From: Zetaproteobacteria bacterium
Lineage (GTDB): Bacteria; Pseudomonadota; Zetaproteobacteria; Mariprofundales; Mariprofundaceae
Direction of reading: 5' to 3'
Length of the DNA: 36,333 nucleotides
Assembly (NCBI GenBank): GCA_002746295.2
Contig: NVWS02000024.1
Location: forward strand, 1 to 36,333
Part shown: in pieces, positions 22,377-29,355 of the stretch
Numbering within the stretch: position 1 is the stretch's first letter
Layout of the letters: each line of letters begins with the position of its first letter
The notes under the pieces: generated by a model
The model's input: only the letters and a program-made list of their open reading frames with translations
Databases searched by the model: none
What the model was told of the DNA's origin: nothing
Translations under genes and position numbers: made by a program

Positions 22377-22778
22377 CTATTTAAATAAAAAACCGCTGAT
22401 GGTCATGGGTTTATCATCAATGGGTTTGATAATGGTGACGGTTTCATGGCTGGTACCATGTTCATGAACCACAGACATGACATAAATATAGAAATCACCA
22501 CCAAAGCGTGGATCTTTTTGCTGGGAAACCAAATTAAATGCTTGAATTTCACCTTTTTCTTCAATTTGCGCTTTCATTTGTTGTTCCCAATATTTTTTAG
22601 GCATTTGTTTGAAGAATTTTGGATCGAACAGCGCTTCAGCTTGTTCCCATTGATGCTTTTGAATAGATTGATTGAGTTGTTGGAGTATTTTATTGGCTTG
22701 AGGTTGTTGATCGGCCGATGTGATGCAAGATGAAAGTGAAAGTATTGAAAATAGGATGAAAAAAGTGCGAAAGCGCAT
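22377..22778 (-). CDS. Small predicted lipoprotein of unknown function
   Basis: This 133-residue protein has a lipoprotein signal peptide ending in the lipobox LSSC (Cys about 18). It continues with a helical region rich in Gln/Lys (about 25-60) and a beta-rich C-terminal half (KGEIQAFNLVSQQ, GDFYIYVMSVVHEHG, ETVTIIKPIDDKPMTISGF), resembling small NTF2- or DUF4019-like periplasmic domains. I do not recognise a specific family. AAGGAA about five bases before the ATG supports the start. It is divergent from the cytochrome c gene, so the two may share regulation. Confidence 0.8.
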   Translation of the reverse strand: MRFRTFFILFSILSLSSCITSADQQPQANKILQQLNQSIQKHQWEQAEALFDPKFFKQMPKKYWEQQMKAQIEEKGEIQAFNLVSQQKDPRFGGDFYIYVMSVVHEHGTSHETVTIIKPIDDKPMTISGFLFK

Positions 22779-22828: not shown

Positions 22829-23428
22829 ATGAAAGAAGACAATAAAAGACCCAAACAAAAACTAAAAACTGGCGAGAAGTTATTATTTATTGTAGCTGGT
22901 GCATTTGTGGTGTTGGGAGTGATCACATTTGGCATTATGCAATATGTGATGGCAACCAGTGATAAGCCACTTTTTGAACAGCACACTCATTTTGACTTAA
23001 GTAAACTGGGTGAAAAAGGTTCTCAAATTTATCGCCACCAAGCCTGTTCAGAATGTCACCGTGCGATGTCTGAAGGCACCAATATGGGCAATAGCTTGGA
23101 TGGTATTGGATCCCGCTATGGTGTTGCTTGGATTGAAAAATTCCTTACTCATCCAGAAGAAACGTATAATCATCGAACCATGGATCATGGTAAGAAACCA
23201 AAGCAGGCCTATTATGTGGCAGAACTTTCCAAAGAAGATATTCACGCTTTGGCAGTCTTTTTATCGGAATTAAAATCAGATCAAGGTTCATCATCATCAC
23301 CTGTTCCACCGAAAGGCGAATCACCATTTATTGATCAAATGGTAAAAACATGGGCTCCTGATGAGTGGAAACATAAATACACAGATATTCGTGACAAATT
23401 ACCACAAAAAACAGGAGAAGCAGAATGA
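22829..23428 (+). CDS. Membrane-tethered monohaem cytochrome c
   Basis: This 199-residue protein has a basic cytoplasmic N-terminus, one transmembrane anchor (about 17-38) and a periplasmic class I cytochrome c domain with one haem-binding motif CSECH (73-77). A Pro/Ser linker and a charged tail (about 155-199) follow. Methionines in the HRTMDHG region or nearby could give the distal haem ligand. The topology resembles CcoO but the sequence around the haem does not. The ATG at 22829 has no clear Shine-Dalgarno, and a GTG ten codons upstream (22799) is an alternative. Its stop overlaps the next gene (ATGA), a half-CcoN homologue, so the two are likely translated together and may form one complex. 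Confidence 0.87.
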   Translation: MKEDNKRPKQKLKTGEKLLFIVAGAFVVLGVITFGIMQYVMATSDKPLFEQHTHFDLSKLGEKGSQIYRHQACSECHRAMSEGTNMGNSLDGIGSRYGVAWIEKFLTHPEETYNHRTMDHGKKPKQAYYVAELSKEDIHALAVFLSELKSDQGSSSSPVPPKGESPFIDQMVKTWAPDEWKHKYTDIRDKLPQKTGEAE

Positions 23429-23937
23429 CGGAGCAACCGTGGGAAGATGAAGAGTATGTTAAATATATCTTATGGTTTGTATTTGCCTGTGTTATTTATA
23501 GTATGATTGGTTTTTCTTGGGGAGCCTTGATGGGTGGTATCTCAGATTTTCGCCATTTTGTGGATCACCGGATGCATGGTAACTTGATTGTGCGTGCGCA
23601 TACGCATATCAACCTATTGGGCTGGGTGGAAATGGCTATTTTTGCTGCGGTTTATTATATTGTACCTCGCTTGGTGAAACGTCCTATTTATAGTATGAAA
23701 CTCGTGAAATGGCATTTTTGGGTGCATAACTTGGGTTTGATTGGCATGGTGGTGTTTTTCACAGTGGCTGGCGTGGCGGGTGGTATTGCCAGTGAACATG
23801 TGTCGCCAGAAGAAGTCGAAGCGATTGTGAAGCCTTGGTTAGCAGTGATGGGTATTTTTGGCACTTTGGTGTTGATTGCTAACTTTATTTGGGCATACAA
23901 TATTTTTCGTACCTGCCAAGGTTGGAGGAAGTCGTAA
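23425..23937 (+). CDS. CcoN-like half-subunit: C-terminal haem-copper oxidase module without CuB site
   Basis: This 170-residue protein has four transmembrane segments (about 11-38, 53-80, 95-120, 139-162). From residue 56 it aligns by eye with the last part of cbb3 subunit CcoN. RAHTHINLLGW matches VAHAHLALLGF, AAVYYIVPRLVKRPIYS matches AAVYYGMQTMLRRKLYS, KWHFWVH matches NFHFWML, and the last helix ends NFIWAYNIFRT versus NIVWLYNMYMT. His59 and His61 correspond to the two haem-ligand histidines of CcoN. The CuB histidines and cross-linked Tyr have no counterpart. It is unlikely to be a fragment of a broken gene: it has its own first helix and overlaps the genes on both sides. The function is unknown; a haem b electron-transfer or sensing subunit is an inference. 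Confidence 0.85.
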   Translation: MTEQPWEDEEYVKYILWFVFACVIYSMIGFSWGALMGGISDFRHFVDHRMHGNLIVRAHTHINLLGWVEMAIFAAVYYIVPRLVKRPIYSMKLVKWHFWVHNLGLIGMVVFFTVAGVAGGIASEHVSPEEVEAIVKPWLAVMGIFGTLVLIANFIWAYNIFRTCQGWRKS

Positions 23938-24464
23938 TGTCACGTTTGCTTGGGATACTGATTCTTTTTGTCGTACCTTCTATTTTTATGGCGGGGTGTG
24001 ATGGTAACTTTAGCATGGGTGGTGGTGGCGTGTTTAAGATTGGACAGGAAGTTACACCTGTGAAGACCAAGACACTTGCAGATGTGAATGGTGATATGTC
24101 GAAGTTGACCAGTTATCGCTATCCTGATCCTCGGATGTATCAACTATCTTTTGATAAGGCACTTAAAGCAGGTAAGCCGATTGTGCTTGAATTTGCCACG
24201 CCAGGTCACTGCACCCAGTGTGATCAGCAGTTACAATTGCTTAAAGTCATGCTAGATAAATATGGTGATAAAGTAAATTTTCTCCATATGGATCAATATT
24301 ATAATCCCGAAGCTTATGATGTTTTTCAAGTGCGTGGCGAACCTTGGACATTCTTGATTACCAAAGATGGAAAAGTGAATTATATAGCACCTGGTCGCGT
24401 GCTTTATCAAGAGATTGACCCTGCGATTCAACAGCTGTTGGATGTTGGAAAAAAACATGGCTAA
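23937..24464 (+). CDS. Thioredoxin-fold lipoprotein with CTQC motif
   Basis: This 175-residue protein has a lipoprotein-type signal peptide (FMAGC, Cys21), a Gly-rich linker and a thioredoxin-like domain (about 65-175) with LEFATPGHCTQC. The CXXC lies at 92-95, followed by a cis-Pro candidate in VRGEPWTFLI. It should act on the periplasmic side of a membrane as a disulfide reductase or a metal/haem-apocytochrome handling factor, as TlpA/ResA/Sco-type proteins do. The ATG at 23937 overlaps the previous stop (TAATG) and follows GGAGGAA by six bases, so the longer upstream frame is rejected. Its place in the cluster suggests it matures the neighbouring cytochrome or oxidase, by context. Confidence 0.87.
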   Translation: MSRLLGILILFVVPSIFMAGCDGNFSMGGGGVFKIGQEVTPVKTKTLADVNGDMSKLTSYRYPDPRMYQLSFDKALKAGKPIVLEFATPGHCTQCDQQLQLLKVMLDKYGDKVNFLHMDQYYNPEAYDVFQVRGEPWTFLITKDGKVNYIAPGRVLYQEIDPAIQQLLDVGKKHG

Positions 24465-24918
24465 ATCTTGGCGTGAAGTGAAGTGTGAACTAAATTCAGA
24501 TAAATCGGGTGTGATTTGGGATTTGATTCTTTATGTGCCAACAGTGGGGTTTTTGTTGTTGATAGGCTTGCGCTATTGGTACACAGATGAATCGAGCATG
24601 TTGGGTGAAGGCTTGATGTTTTTGGGTTTTTTCTTTTTCATCGTGGCGGCGAATCGTATTTCTAGGCGTTTGTTGCTGATGCCTTCTTCGCCTGTGGGTT
24701 TGGATATTCGAAAAGAACATATTGCGATGATTTTGAAAAATGGTGAAAAACGCTTGTTGATGCGTGATATTCGTTTTTTTTCAGATAAAGCGGGCAAGTC
24801 CTTTGGTTTAACAGGCATGGATGAACGTGGATCCAAGCAGCAATATGTCTTTCATAAAGGACAGTTTTCTACAGATGACTTTGATAAAATCGGTAAGGCG
24901 CTGGCTTTTTATAAGTAA
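24457..24918 (+). CDS. Membrane protein with PH-like C-terminal domain, unknown function
   Basis: This 153-residue protein has two hydrophobic helices (about 20-36 and 45-65) forming a hairpin. A cytoplasmic beta-rich domain follows (about 80-153, GLDIRKEHIAMILKNGEKRLLMRDIRFF...), reminiscent of bacterial PH-like domains. I do not recognise a named family. The ATG at 24457 overlaps the end of the thioredoxin-like gene by eight bases. An upstream in-frame start at 24415 would overlap more and has no better ribosome site. It is the last gene of the half-CcoN cluster. Its stop codon lies within a GTAACTGAGTTAC palindrome. Confidence 0.78.
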   Translation: MAKSWREVKCELNSDKSGVIWDLILYVPTVGFLLLIGLRYWYTDESSMLGEGLMFLGFFFFIVAANRISRRLLLMPSSPVGLDIRKEHIAMILKNGEKRLLMRDIRFFSDKAGKSFGLTGMDERGSKQQYVFHKGQFSTDDFDKIGKALAFYK

Positions 24919-25399: not shown

Positions 25400-25612
25400 C
25401 TATTTTCTTTGATTGAGACGGGTTTTAAGGATGTCTCTGACCATCCATCCAATGGCACAGATAGCGATGCCAACAACAATACTCATGATTAGGTACTCAG
25501 TTTCTTCACTGACCAAGCCGCCAATAAAAATATGCACAGTATAAGAAAGCATGAATAGTGAAACGCAGGCGCTAAAGCCATAAATGAGAGATTCTCGCAT
25601 GGCGGACATCAT
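25400..25612 (-). CDS. Small two-helix membrane protein next to the cbb3 locus
   Basis: This 70-residue protein has two hydrophobic helices (about 8-32 and 40-61) and a basic C-terminal end (KTRLNQRK). I recognise no family. The start is uncertain: Met1, Met2 and Met5 are all possible and no Shine-Dalgarno is evident. It is divergent from the oxidase cluster, whose own accessory proteins are also tiny membrane proteins, so an oxidase-related function is possible but unproven. Confidence 0.55.
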   Translation of the reverse strand: MMSAMRESLIYGFSACVSLFMLSYTVHIFIGGLVSEETEYLIMSIVVGIAICAIGWMVRDILKTRLNQRK

Positions 25613-25749: not shown

Positions 25750-26013
25750 ATGAAAAATTCAGTATGGCTAATCATTGTCGCTGGCTTTGTTACAGGTATG
25801 GGTAATGGATCAGTGTTTACAATTGCTACACAGCTTGCGATAGGTCGTGGACCTTTTGCAGAAGCGGGCATTTGGGGTATGGATGCGTATTCACCATTTA
25901 CGATGGAAGGTTTTGGTAACTGGGTCATGATTGTATTTGGTATCGCTTTTGTATTAATTTTGGGTTATGCATTAAAACTTCACGGTGTCATCGAAGGTTT
26001 GCAGGAAGACTAA
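25750..26013 (+). CDS. Small membrane protein, first gene of the cbb3 locus
   Basis: This 87-residue protein has two hydrophobic helices (about 4-24 and 57-77) joined by a Gly-rich loop that probably faces the periplasm (IGRGPFAEAGIWGMDAYSPFTMEGFGN). A very strong Shine-Dalgarno (AAGGAGGG) lies a few bases before the ATG. The next small gene starts 19 bases later and ccoN follows. I do not recognise the family. Being first in an oxidase operon with such a strong ribosome site suggests a stoichiometric accessory subunit or assembly factor, by context. Confidence 0.8.
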   Translation: MKNSVWLIIVAGFVTGMGNGSVFTIATQLAIGRGPFAEAGIWGMDAYSPFTMEGFGNWVMIVFGIAFVLILGYALKLHGVIEGLQED

Positions 26014-26032: not shown

Positions 26033-26128
26033 ATGGCGGCAGTTGCATCTGTGTTGGGCATTGTTTTGGCGTTTTCGAGCATGTGGTTTGCTTGGTATCT
26101 TTTGATGCCTGGTCAGCATGACGATTAA
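26033..26128 (+). CDS. 31-residue single-helix membrane protein in the cbb3 locus
   Basis: This very small gene encodes MAAVASVLGIVLAFSSMW followed by FAWYLLMPGQHDD. It is one hydrophobic helix (about 3-25) with a short acidic tail. An AGGGAG ribosome site lies six bases before the ATG and the reading frame is clean to TAA. The size and build resemble the single-helix small subunits known from terminal oxidases (CcoQ, CcoM, CydX), though I cannot assign it to any of those families. It lies 63 bases before ccoN. Confidence 0.75.
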   Translation: MAAVASVLGIVLAFSSMWFAWYLLMPGQHDD

Positions 26129-26191: not shown

Positions 26192-27598
26192 ATGATTAAG
26201 TATATGTTTTCGAAAGAAGAAGATATTCCAGGCGGCACAGCCTCGATTTTCTTCGGGTTTTCGTGTTTAATGTGGTTTATTGTAGGTACAGGAATTGGTT
26301 CGTTTAATGCGGCGAAGTTGGCGTTCCCTGATTTCTTCACGCATTATTATGCGTTGCAATTTGGTCATATGCGTCAAGTGCATGTGCATACTGTAATTTT
26401 TGGTTGGATTGTGGGCGCATTTGCTGCATCAGCATTGTATATTGTTCCAGCCTTGGGTAATACCAAGTTGTGGTCTGAAAAATTGGGCGTTTGGAACTGC
26501 ATGGCTTGGAATGTTGGCTTAATGTTGGCATTGTCGACATTGTGGTTCGGCATGACATCAGGTCGTGAGTATTCAGACTTTATGTGGCCGATTGATTTGT
26601 ATATTGCATTCTGCATGGTAACACCGCTGTTTATCAATATCTTTATGTCGATTTTAAACCGTCGTACGCAGGGTATTTATACCACAAACTGGTTCTTTGC
26701 GGGTTCATTCTTTATGTTGATTATTGTGTTCTTGGTGGGTAATGCGCCAGAATTTTTTCATCTGACGGGTTTGAATGAAGCATATATGACTTGGTGGTTT
26801 GCGCATAACGTATTGGGCTTGTTGATTACACCCGTTGCGGCAGCGATCACTTATTACATCATACCGAAAGTAACGGGTAATCCATTGTACTCCCATCGTG
26901 TGGGTCATTTGCATTTTTGGTCTATCGTGGTTTTCTATTCCACACCTGCAGCGCATCACTTGATGAGTTCGCCATTGCCTGAATGGTTGAAATCATTCGC
27001 ATCGGTGGAAGGTGTATTGATTCTTGTGCCTGCGGTGGCTTATGTATGTAATATCTTGTTAACCATGCAGGGTCGTTGGTCGATGTTTGTGGAAAATATT
27101 GAAATTAAATACACCATTACAGGTGTGTTGCTTGCCATTCCATTGAATATGCAAGGTGGTTTCCAACAAACGCGTGCGATTAACTGGTATGTTCATGGTA
27201 CTGGTTGGATTGTAGCACATGCCCACTTGGCATTGCTTGGTTTCTCAACGTTCGCTGAAGCAGCCGCAGTGTATTATGGTATGCAAACCATGTTACGTCG
27301 TAAACTATATTCGTTGAGCTTGGCTAACTTCCACTTTTGGATGTTGTTGATTGGCTTCTCTTTGTACTGGGTTTCCATGACCATCGCTGGTTTGATTCAA
27401 GGCGCAGGTAAAATCTATGAAGTACCATATTTGGATATCGTGATTGCAGAGCATCCTTATATGATCGTTCGTTGGTTGGGTGGTACCATGGTCTTCTTGG
27501 GTAACATTGTTTGGTTGTACAATATGTACATGACAGTGAAAAAAGGTGAGAAATTAGAACATGGTGTTCTTCCGCACGAAGTAGCCTACGTACGTTAA
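26192..27598 (+). CDS. ccoN: cbb3-type cytochrome c oxidase subunit I
   Basis: This is the catalytic subunit of the high-affinity oxygen-reducing proton pump of the inner membrane. The 468-residue protein has about 12 helices. The ligand set is complete: a haem b histidine in VHVHTVIFGW (His64 or His66), CuB ligands His205 (WWFAHN) and His255-His256 (AAHHL), Tyr249 (VVFYSTP) for the cross-link, and haem ligands His343 and His345 in VAHAHLALLGF. The ATG at 26192 was chosen because AGGAG ends eight bases before it. A GTG at 26183 overlaps that ribosome site. ccoO follows after an 84-base gap that holds a strong hairpin. Confidence 0.96.
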   Translation: MIKYMFSKEEDIPGGTASIFFGFSCLMWFIVGTGIGSFNAAKLAFPDFFTHYYALQFGHMRQVHVHTVIFGWIVGAFAASALYIVPALGNTKLWSEKLGVWNCMAWNVGLMLALSTLWFGMTSGREYSDFMWPIDLYIAFCMVTPLFINIFMSILNRRTQGIYTTNWFFAGSFFMLIIVFLVGNAPEFFHLTGLNEAYMTWWFAHNVLGLLITPVAAAITYYIIPKVTGNPLYSHRVGHLHFWSIVVFYSTPAAHHLMSSPLPEWLKSFASVEGVLILVPAVAYVCNILLTMQGRWSMFVENIEIKYTITGVLLAIPLNMQGGFQQTRAINWYVHGTGWIVAHAHLALLGFSTFAEAAAVYYGMQTMLRRKLYSLSLANFHFWMLLIGFSLYWVSMTIAGLIQGAGKIYEVPYLDIVIAEHPYMIVRWLGGTMVFLGNIVWLYNMYMTVKKGEKLEHGVLPHEVAYVR

Positions 27599-27682: not shown

Positions 27683-28627
27683 ATGGGATTTCGTGAATAT
27701 CGAATTGGTTCGATTATGTTTGGCGTAGCATTGGCTACATCCATGGTAGTGACTGTTTATATGCCAGGTTTGGATATTTCGAACACAACAGCAACAGCAA
27801 CAGCATTAGAAAAGCAATTGACCTATGGTAAGGTCGCAGGCTTTGATTATGGTGATCCATTTTTACATGGTGATGATAAGCCGATCAAGGTGATCTTGAA
27901 AAAAGATCCGAAAACAGGCGCAGCGATTGATGAAACAGTCGCGTATGTGTTTAAACCGGGGACTTCATTGCCCAGTGGTTTGGTTCATGATCATATCAAT
28001 GGTGCGGCGATTCAAGCATTGAGCGTGAGTTTGGGTAAAACCGACCAGGTCAGTGTGGAAGCAGGTGGCGTTTATTTGGTTGTAAAATCTGTCAAAAATG
28101 GTGTGGAAACACCGTATATTGAATTGGCAAGTGCAACCCGTGGTTGGACCATTGATGCGACATTGAAAGCCGCTGATCAAGAAATCTTGGCGGGTGCTGG
28201 TAAGGTGATGTTTATTCGTGAAGGTTGCTGGTGGTGCCATACCTTGTTACCAGAGCAAACGCATGATTGGCAATCGTTTGGTCGCCCTCCAATGTTGGGT
28301 GATTTTAATGGTGAATCTCCAACTACCTTTGGTTCGGATCGTAAAGCACCTGATTTGTTGCATGTGGGTTCTCGTAATTCCTCCAAAGAGTGGATGATGA
28401 TGCATTTCTTTAACCCTCGCTTGGTTCAACCGCATTCTATTATGCCACGTTATGATTATTTGTGGGGTGGTGTTGATAAAAAAGGTAATAACATTGATCT
28501 AGCCAAGTGGGATGAAGAGTTTGATGCGTACCGTGAGGGCTCTCGTGTGTATCCGCCTGAGGTGCCTGAATATGCTGATAATTCAGAAATTCGTTACTTG
28601 ATTGACTATGTTCTAGACTTGAAATAA
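27683..28627 (+). CDS. ccoO: cbb3-type oxidase subunit II (CcoO) with a long insertion
   Basis: This 314-residue membrane-anchored monohaem cytochrome c passes electrons to CcoN. It has an N-terminal anchor helix (about 8-28), then a roughly 110-residue region with no place in ordinary CcoO (about 45-165). The familiar haem domain follows: FIREGCWWCHTL with CWWCH at 182-186, SDRKAPDLLHVG, NPRLVQPHSIMPRYDYL with the Met ligand, and a C-terminal helix. Typical CcoO is about 200 residues. The insertion contains beta-strand-like segments (VEAGGVYLVVKSVKNG). GGGAGGA lies about nine bases before the ATG. Confidence 0.93.
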   Translation: MGFREYRIGSIMFGVALATSMVVTVYMPGLDISNTTATATALEKQLTYGKVAGFDYGDPFLHGDDKPIKVILKKDPKTGAAIDETVAYVFKPGTSLPSGLVHDHINGAAIQALSVSLGKTDQVSVEAGGVYLVVKSVKNGVETPYIELASATRGWTIDATLKAADQEILAGAGKVMFIREGCWWCHTLLPEQTHDWQSFGRPPMLGDFNGESPTTFGSDRKAPDLLHVGSRNSSKEWMMMHFFNPRLVQPHSIMPRYDYLWGGVDKKGNNIDLAKWDEEFDAYREGSRVYPPEVPEYADNSEIRYLIDYVLDLK

Positions 28628-28638
28628 GGAGGATTGAA

Positions 28639-29355
28639 ATGTCTAAATTTTTACCATTACTGGATGGTTTGAAGCTAAGTCATCCACTTAAAACCATGTC
28701 GGATGATCGTAAGGTTCAAGAAGCACAGTATATTTGGGAACATGAAAGTTTGGGTGGGATTGCCGAAAATAACAATCCTTTGCCGCGCCCCGTGGTGGGA
28801 TTGTTGATCTTAACATTTATCACAGCGATTGCTTGGACGTTTCCGTTGTTTGGGCAACGCCCCAACGCTGCTATTTATGCGGATTATATCACCTTGATGC
28901 ATTCAGCACCTGTACAGCAGGTTATGAATGATAAAACACTGACGACATCGGCACGTGATGAAAAAGCGATGAAGATGATTGTGGGTGCTTTGGCTGATTC
29001 TGATTCTCCTTATGAGTTTCAACGCATTCAACATCCTATTTCGATGAATGATTTGCGTATCATGGAGCCTGGAATTATTGAGCTTCAAAATCAACATGCA
29101 GATTTGCGAGAGTATTCCATCATTGGTAATGATGTGGCGTTGGCGAACTTTGAGGGGAATTGGAAAACAGATGCGAATGGTAACTTTTTAAAGGGTCCAG
29201 ATGGCAAGAAAGTTCGTGAGCGTTTGCAACCTTGGTGGGATAAAGGTTACATGACATCGGTGTACTACTTCTTTGGTTTTTGTTTTCTTGTGATTATCAC
29301 AGTAAAACGCTTGCCTCCCATTACTTGGAAACCAGATCACAGCATTGCTCATTAA
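28639..29355 (+). CDS. CcoP-like subunit lacking haem c motifs
   Basis: This 238-residue protein follows ccoO after an AAGGAGG ribosome site. Its N-terminal third looks like CcoP: a charged segment, then GIAENNNPLPRPVVG leading into a transmembrane helix (about 52-70), as in the GIxExNNPLP motif of diheme CcoP. The rest differs. There is no CXXCH anywhere and only one cysteine (in the second helix). About 130 residues of probably periplasmic sequence are followed by a second helix (about 207-226). It is therefore not a cytochrome c and cannot do the normal CcoP electron transfer. A structural subunit replacing CcoP is the inference. Confidence 0.8.
   Translation: MSKFLPLLDGLKLSHPLKTMSDDRKVQEAQYIWEHESLGGIAENNNPLPRPVVGLLILTFITAIAWTFPLFGQRPNAAIYADYITLMHSAPVQQVMNDKTLTTSARDEKAMKMIVGALADSDSPYEFQRIQHPISMNDLRIMEPGIIELQNQHADLREYSIIGNDVALANFEGNWKTDANGNFLKGPDGKKVRERLQPWWDKGYMTSVYYFFGFCFLVIITVKRLPPITWKPDHSIAH

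Follow-up and report, generated by a model that had tools for sequence, protein, structure and literature searches.

Subunit I of the haem-copper oxidases normally comprises 12 helices and a CuB site, and the 12-helix enzymes are assumed to have evolved from one repeat through internal repetition. In the established structure of CcoN, which is subunit I of the cbb3 oxidases, helix 2 provides H60 and helix 10 provides H347 as the ligands of haem b. Two classes of cbb3 oxidase, proximal and distal, are already known in Zetaproteobacteria (PMC7029218), as is a cytochrome cassette with cyc1 (Field et al. 2015, cited in PMC7029218), and a cyc1/polyferredoxin synteny region has been described as common to Ca. 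Tenderia electrophaga and PV-1 (PMC5371394). Absence of cyc1 is recorded for Ghiorsea, and absence of both cyc1 and cbb3 for strains CP-5 and CP-8 (PMC7029218, PMC5371394, PMC5513912). The passages of the published accounts that deal with the cyc1 cassette region treat cytochromes and the oxidase and do not mention a protein made of a single haem-copper oxidase repeat, and a literature search for a short CcoN-like protein returned nothing relevant.

Such a protein is encoded in the window, by which we mean the whole 36,333-nucleotide stretch of zetaproteobacterial DNA analyzed here. We refer to it as HCO-A (23425..23937, +): a single four-helix repeat of subunit I standing on its own as a 170-aa protein, with an H59-T-H61 motif and no CuB site. 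It belongs to a module of four genes on the same strand, together with a tethered monohaem cytochrome c (cytc; 22829..23428, +), a lipoprotein with a predicted thioredoxin fold (trx; 23937..24464, +) and a two-TM protein whose predicted fold is a PH-like domain, a beta-barrel plus helix (24457..24918, +). The start of HCO-A overlaps the end of cytc by ATGA, the HCO-A/trx junction reads TAATG, and the trx and PH genes overlap by 8 bases; the reading frames and junctions thereby agree to the base with the preliminary description of this DNA. The order cytc–HCO-A–trx–PH is kept, in Zetaproteobacteria and Gammaproteobacteria, in essentially all fetched loci long enough to show all four genes, and neighboring genes mostly overlap or are separated by only a few bases. 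Divergently to the module lies a gene for a 133-aa lipoprotein (22377-22778, −) with a weak DUF3887 match; in many Zetaproteobacteria a homologue of it precedes the module.

HCO-A is related by descent to subunit I of the haem-copper oxidase superfamily. It scores 65.4 bits against the Pfam COX1 profile (PF00115; cut-off 34.8), residues 22–147 aligning with positions 310–435 of 436, and it is 31% identical to the CcoN encoded in the same window over 136 residues (E = 5e-18). In a PDB sequence search, CcoN was matched at 3e-19 to 4e-16 and NorB by profile, whereas the score of 64 bits against the CcoN equivalog TIGR00780 is below the 583-bit cut-off of that family. All three CcoN repeats align with HCO-A, the third (helices 9–12) best and the first and second more weakly, and the protein therefore represents one third of subunit I; of the original proposal that it is half of CcoN, the homology stands and the proportion does not. 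In the AlphaFold2 model (52 rows), four long helices are complemented by a short one within the loop preceding the HxH motif, with a pLDDT of 81.7 overall and below 50 at residues 52–58, just N-terminal to that motif. Foldseek comparison of the model with the PDB placed CcoN chains at the top (probability 1.00, TM-score 0.52–0.59), with E-values of only 6e-3 to 2e-2, and NorB next. H59 and H61 align with H345 and H347 of P. stutzeri CcoN, respectively, and H59 in addition with H60 of repeat 1. As anticipated in the preliminary description, the histidine pair is thus kept, whereas the CuB histidines and the cross-linked tyrosine have no counterpart in HCO-A in the alignment to CcoN, because they belong to the middle repeat, which HCO-A lacks. 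With four helices, HCO-A also departs from functional haem-copper oxidases and NO reductases, which have twelve transmembrane helices in three repeats.

Orthologues of HCO-A at 72–99% identity were found in at least 80 loci in one scan of species genomes, representing Mariprofundus, other Zetaproteobacteria and Gammaproteobacteria, including a Candidatus Tenderia genome, and sampled Gammaproteobacteria added further orthologues down to 58% identity. Approximately 90 of them are intact and 168–184 aa long; R43, H59, H61, E69, H97 and H101 are invariant across 89 zeta- and gammaproteobacterial sequences, and dN/dS relative to close relatives is 0.01–0.05. Between the two classes, the median identity of HCO-A (75%) equals that of CcoN (75%) and exceeds those of the CcoS-like (59%), FGE (54%) and CcoG-like (45%) proteins encoded in the same cluster; among the deep orthologues, HCO-A has diverged more than the accompanying CcoN (58–63% versus 73–76% identity). 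In a tree of the repeats, the HCO-A group falls outside repeat 3 of the neighboring CcoN (R3dist 100/100), so that HCO-A is not a recent ccoN fragment, and its derivation from the neighboring ccoN was rejected on the same grounds; the deeper joins of this tree are unreliable owing to long-branch joining. The best match of HCO-A being CcoN repeat 3, one might suspect a decayed piece of the adjacent ccoN, but this idea has practically no chance of being correct given the purifying selection, the intact lengths, the wide distribution and the position outside the neighbor's repeat 3. The preliminary description, which argued from tight coupling against a broken gene, had named two findings that would speak against its reading, a lack of conserved homologues of this length elsewhere and homologues that are always pseudogene fragments beside a complete ccoN; neither was encountered in the genomes analyzed.

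The 199-aa cytochrome of the module has one N-terminal transmembrane segment, a C73-x-x-C-H77 motif and a Pfam Cytochrom_C match of 42 bits, and a single CxxCH is found in 88 of 88 orthologues. Its distal Met is not conserved, position 118 being Met in only 23 of 83 sequences, whereas H120, 43 residues C-terminal to the haem His, is invariant, which makes a bis-His haem likely. The haem of cytc is thus probably ligated by His77 and His120, or else has an open site, and the protein combines the CxxCH of class I His/Met cytochromes c with the lack of a conserved distal Met. Its assignment to NorC or CcoO was rejected, as there was no curated family match. The 175-aa trx protein carries a lipobox (C21), a C92-T-Q-C95 motif and a Thioredoxin match of 29.5 bits (cut-off 23.5), and H91-C92-T93-x-C95 and P136, at the cis-Pro position, are invariant among its orthologues; profile, CxxC and cis-Pro position together point to a thioredoxin fold. 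A Sco-type copper chaperone was considered and rejected, the motif being CxxC rather than CxxxC and a family match lacking. For the 153-aa product of the last gene, the PH-like label given in the preliminary description is a matter of the predicted fold, and a Pfam search yielded no match: the AlphaFold2 model (pLDDT 88) has two TM helices, seven strands and a C-terminal helix, and its best Foldseek match in the PDB is a tandem PH domain, with a probability of 0.99 but a TM-score of only 0.29. The fold search thus lends this label no more than moderate support.

Downstream of the module the window encodes a divergent cbb3 oxidase, with 1.27 kb between the PH gene and the start of ccoN, in line with the distance of about 1.3 kb reported before. 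The intervening region contains a gene for a small two-TM protein (25403..25612, −), matched in 79 fetched loci and without a family match, followed by an 87-aa two-TM protein (25750..26013, +) that is conserved in the cluster. Also ahead of ccoN is a 31-aa single-TM protein with a SSMWFAWYLLMPG core (26033..26128, +), matched in 68 fetched loci and probably representing an unannotated small oxidase subunit or a CcoQ analogue. The divergent CcoN (26192..27598, +) shares approximately 30% identity with canonical CcoN from relatives and keeps the positions of the CuB histidines, the tyrosine and the haem histidines; we infer that it belongs to the published distal class. CcoO (27683..28627, +) has an enlarged N-terminal region and one CxxCH. 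The CcoP-like subunit (28639..29355, +) has none, and the motif is likewise missing from all its orthologues (0 of 35), so that CcoP of the divergent oxidase has lost its haems and the enzyme departs from canonical cbb3 oxidases with their dihaem CcoP. The gene directly 3′ of ccoP in the window is thrS.

In most relatives, the module lies within a cluster of approximately 17 kb that is common to Zetaproteobacteria and Gammaproteobacteria. The genes for cytc, HCO-A, trx, the PH-like protein, the 87-aa protein, CcoN, CcoO and haemless CcoP are followed by those for a 129-aa TM protein, a CcoS-like protein, a second tethered monohaem cytochrome c, a 180-aa TM protein, an FGE-sulfatase-domain protein, two small TM proteins, a fused MFS/spermidine-synthase-like protein, a CcoG-like polyferredoxin, a FixH-like lipoprotein, and finally HCO-B and its partner. 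The names CcoS-like and FixH-like denote by-eye resemblance without a family match, and only CcoG has family support. A dihaem Cyc1-like gene is located directly upstream of cytc in Gammaproteobacteria, where the order cyc1-cytc-HCO-A-trx-PH-...-ccoNOP is kept, and beside HCO-B in Zetaproteobacteria. Two of these members are conserved from Zeta- to Gammaproteobacteria, namely the FGE-sulfatase-domain protein (L135:9524-10564) and the fused MFS/spermidine-synthase-like protein (L135:11179-13893), and the second cytochrome c (L135:8470-8961) has a canonical-looking distal Met (RMPSY), unlike the cytc of the module. In the genome from which the window derives, the cluster is split, with HCO-B on contig C8, the second cytochrome c on C49 and the Cyc1 homologue on C68. 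HCO-B is a second one-repeat protein of the same kind, 182 aa long with an HAH motif (L114:6390-6938), and its conserved partner of about 175 aa has a weak PF20603 match (L114:6935-7465). The pair occurs in almost every module-bearing genome. HCO-B was found in 14 of 14 module carriers examined, and the positions of H59, H61 and R43 of HCO-A hold in HCO-B as well. A further short HCO-like protein of 179 aa, the third and more distant, is encoded outside the class (L138:6210-6749, −); haem-protein neighbors were not seen among the ORFs examined around it. The cluster with Cyc1, CcoG-like and CcoS-like genes and HCO-B, the haemless CcoP, and the invariant His of cytc without a conserved Met all go beyond the preliminary description.

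The module and the divergent oxidase are distributed together. Among 39 near-complete genomes of Zetaproteobacteria, 24 carry HCO-A as well as the divergent CcoN and the other 15 carry neither (Fisher p=4e-11, a value to be taken only as a guide because the compared genomes share kinship), and all discordant genomes are less than 90% complete. Zetaproteobacteria with canonical CcoN only, or with no CcoN, lack the module. Thus, the functional tie to the nearby oxidase that the preliminary description had considered gains support, with the module in 24 of 24 near-complete zetaproteobacterial genomes that have the divergent CcoN and 0 of 15 that do not. Of the 24 module-bearing genomes, 23 encode the second cytochrome c and 20 a Cyc1 homologue. 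Of the 15 genomes without the module, 14 have neither gene; the remaining one (G082) is a fragmented MAG. Among gammaproteobacterial carriers, the same divergent CcoN (69–80% identity) was found in 19 of 21; in the remaining two, HCO-A is located about 1 kb from the contig start. Physical linkage is not universal: in two genomes (G333 and G480) the module and the oxidase are on separate long contigs and both are retained, and at four loci (L031, L036, L041 and L049) there is no ccoN within more than 5 kb downstream of the module. One gammaproteobacterial MAG (G300, loci L037 and L048) has the module and the divergent ccoN gene in two copies each, which were either co-duplicated or come from two strains binned together.

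These comparisons suggest that, in the iron-oxidising and related marine bacteria that carry it, HCO-A probably serves as a haem-binding accessory to the respiratory system built around the divergent oxidase. More specifically, the likeliest reading is that the module constitutes a dedicated haem b/c unit accessory to the oxidase and to the branch in which Cyc1 is the electron donor, although we judge this reading about evenly poised between right and wrong. HCO-A would be a single-repeat protein of the haem-copper oxidase type without an O2-reducing site. Since H59 and H61 align with CcoN H60/H345 and H347, a repeat-like oligomer would recreate the haem b ligation of CcoN, with one copy contributing H61 and the adjacent copy H59 to a bis-His haem b site; such an oligomer could be a homodimer, a C3-like trimer or, as HCO-B has the same His pair, a mixed assembly of HCO-A and HCO-B. 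The tethered cytc on the periplasmic face would exchange electrons with the haem b of HCO-A, and the whole could link Cyc1 to the oxidase, either as a b–c relay or as a docking subunit. Because CcoP is devoid of haems, the module could carry electrons from Cyc1 towards CcoO. The trx and PH-like proteins might maintain the thiols of the unit and provide for its assembly or anchoring. Several considerations weigh against the accessory unit. The haem, the oligomer, the complex and the electron path are what we infer from sequence and from models of monomers only, the HCO-A model being uncertain at residues 52–58; the haem of cytc could be five-coordinate despite the conserved His; the co-occurrence partly reflects shared inheritance of one cluster, linked in many genomes; and the deep HCO-A orthologues are more diverged than their CcoN. 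A bolder version, in which HCO-A and HCO-B form homo- or hetero-oligomers with the pseudo-threefold layout of subunit I and an interface haem b without CuB and, with the bis-His cytochrome c, a new electron-entry complex, a modern analogue of the ancestral repeat, appears to us rather unlikely.

The main rival, and a serious one given the assembly-type genes around the module, is a role in assembly, which the preliminary description had proposed alongside oxygen-independent electron transfer, a quinol link and sensing. HCO-A might be a haem b (or folding) chaperone that mimics CcoN helices 9–12, with trx and cytc as redox helpers and none of them in the finished enzyme; the CcoG-like, CcoS-like and FixH-like candidates (only the first with family support) and the CxxC of the Trx lipoprotein suit this explanation as well as they suit an accessory unit, and so does the strict co-occurrence with the oxidase. 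Yet canonical cbb3 oxidases assemble without HCO-A, genomes with canonical CcoN only being devoid of the module, and HCO-A is as conserved as catalytic CcoN and far above the CcoG-like protein of the cluster, as well as above the CcoS-like and FGE proteins. A core subunit therefore fits better than an assembly factor, an argument from rates and not a proof, and we regard an assembly role as possible but doubtful.

The pairing of a haem-b-type membrane fold with a tethered cytochrome c would also befit an autonomous quinone-linked oxidoreductase, transferring electrons forward or in reverse between Cyc1 and the quinone pool and merely co-regulated with the oxidase, especially as carriers include chemolithotrophs that need electrons raised to quinone (PMC6443915, PMC5371394). 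However, that job is described as served in Zetaproteobacteria by bc1 and, in some, ACIII (PMC7029218), no quinone-site motif was identified in the module, and its presence tracks one oxidase type, iron oxidisers without that oxidase (PMC5513912) being without the module, all of which renders this function improbable. Even less credence can be given to a sensor or regulatory unit (for gas, redox state or thiols) controlling the oxidase. The cytochrome without a conserved Met and possibly with open coordination, the CxxC protein and the PH-like domain could be read in that sense, but the module contains no output domain or regulator and its level of conservation matches that of a core enzyme part; we consider it highly improbable.

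A conserved putative b/c unit tied to the divergent oxidase is a concrete and testable candidate for the electron path from Cyc1 to the oxidase when CcoP is haemless, and a one-repeat oxidase protein would permit a direct test of how the three-repeat haem-copper oxidase fold could operate in separate pieces. Many marine iron oxidisers have this divergent type as their cbb3 enzyme. In Ca. Tenderia, the complex IV-2 gene set was reported to be among the highest expressed genes in the electrode-growing cell (PMC5371394), and it presumably corresponds to the divergent cbb3 oxidase of HCO-A carriers.

Among known systems, HCO-A most closely resembles the cbb3 subunit CcoN (PF00115, TIGR00780; PDB 3mk7, 9g6b), with which it shares the four-helix repeat, the fold, the HFW motif and an HxH that occupies, on the repeat's second helix, the positions of the haem b/b3 ligands, and from which it differs in having one repeat instead of three and neither CuB histidines nor the cross-linked tyrosine. 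It is similar in length to DUF2871 (PF11070), a short HCO-like family of unknown function that went unmentioned among the top matches of a literature search on it; membership was rejected at 23.6 bits against a 27.4-bit cut-off. As in NorB/NorC nitric oxide reductase, a tethered monohaem cytochrome c gene immediately precedes an HCO-type membrane gene, but HCO-A has no catalytic metal site, and cytc lacks a conserved distal Met and is not recognized as NorC. Like the maturation proteins TlpA, ResA and Sco, trx is a putative membrane-anchored periplasmic thioredoxin-fold protein encoded next to oxidase genes; unlike them, it has a CxxC preceded by His, not the CxxxC of Sco, and matches no equivalog. 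Finally, the HCO-A cluster resembles the published cyc1 cassette and Ca. Tenderia synteny region in having Cyc1, a distal cbb3 oxidase and the polyferredoxin CcoG, and a Candidatus Tenderia genome carries both HCO-A and HCO-B; the published region is very likely the same genomic region as the HCO-A cluster.
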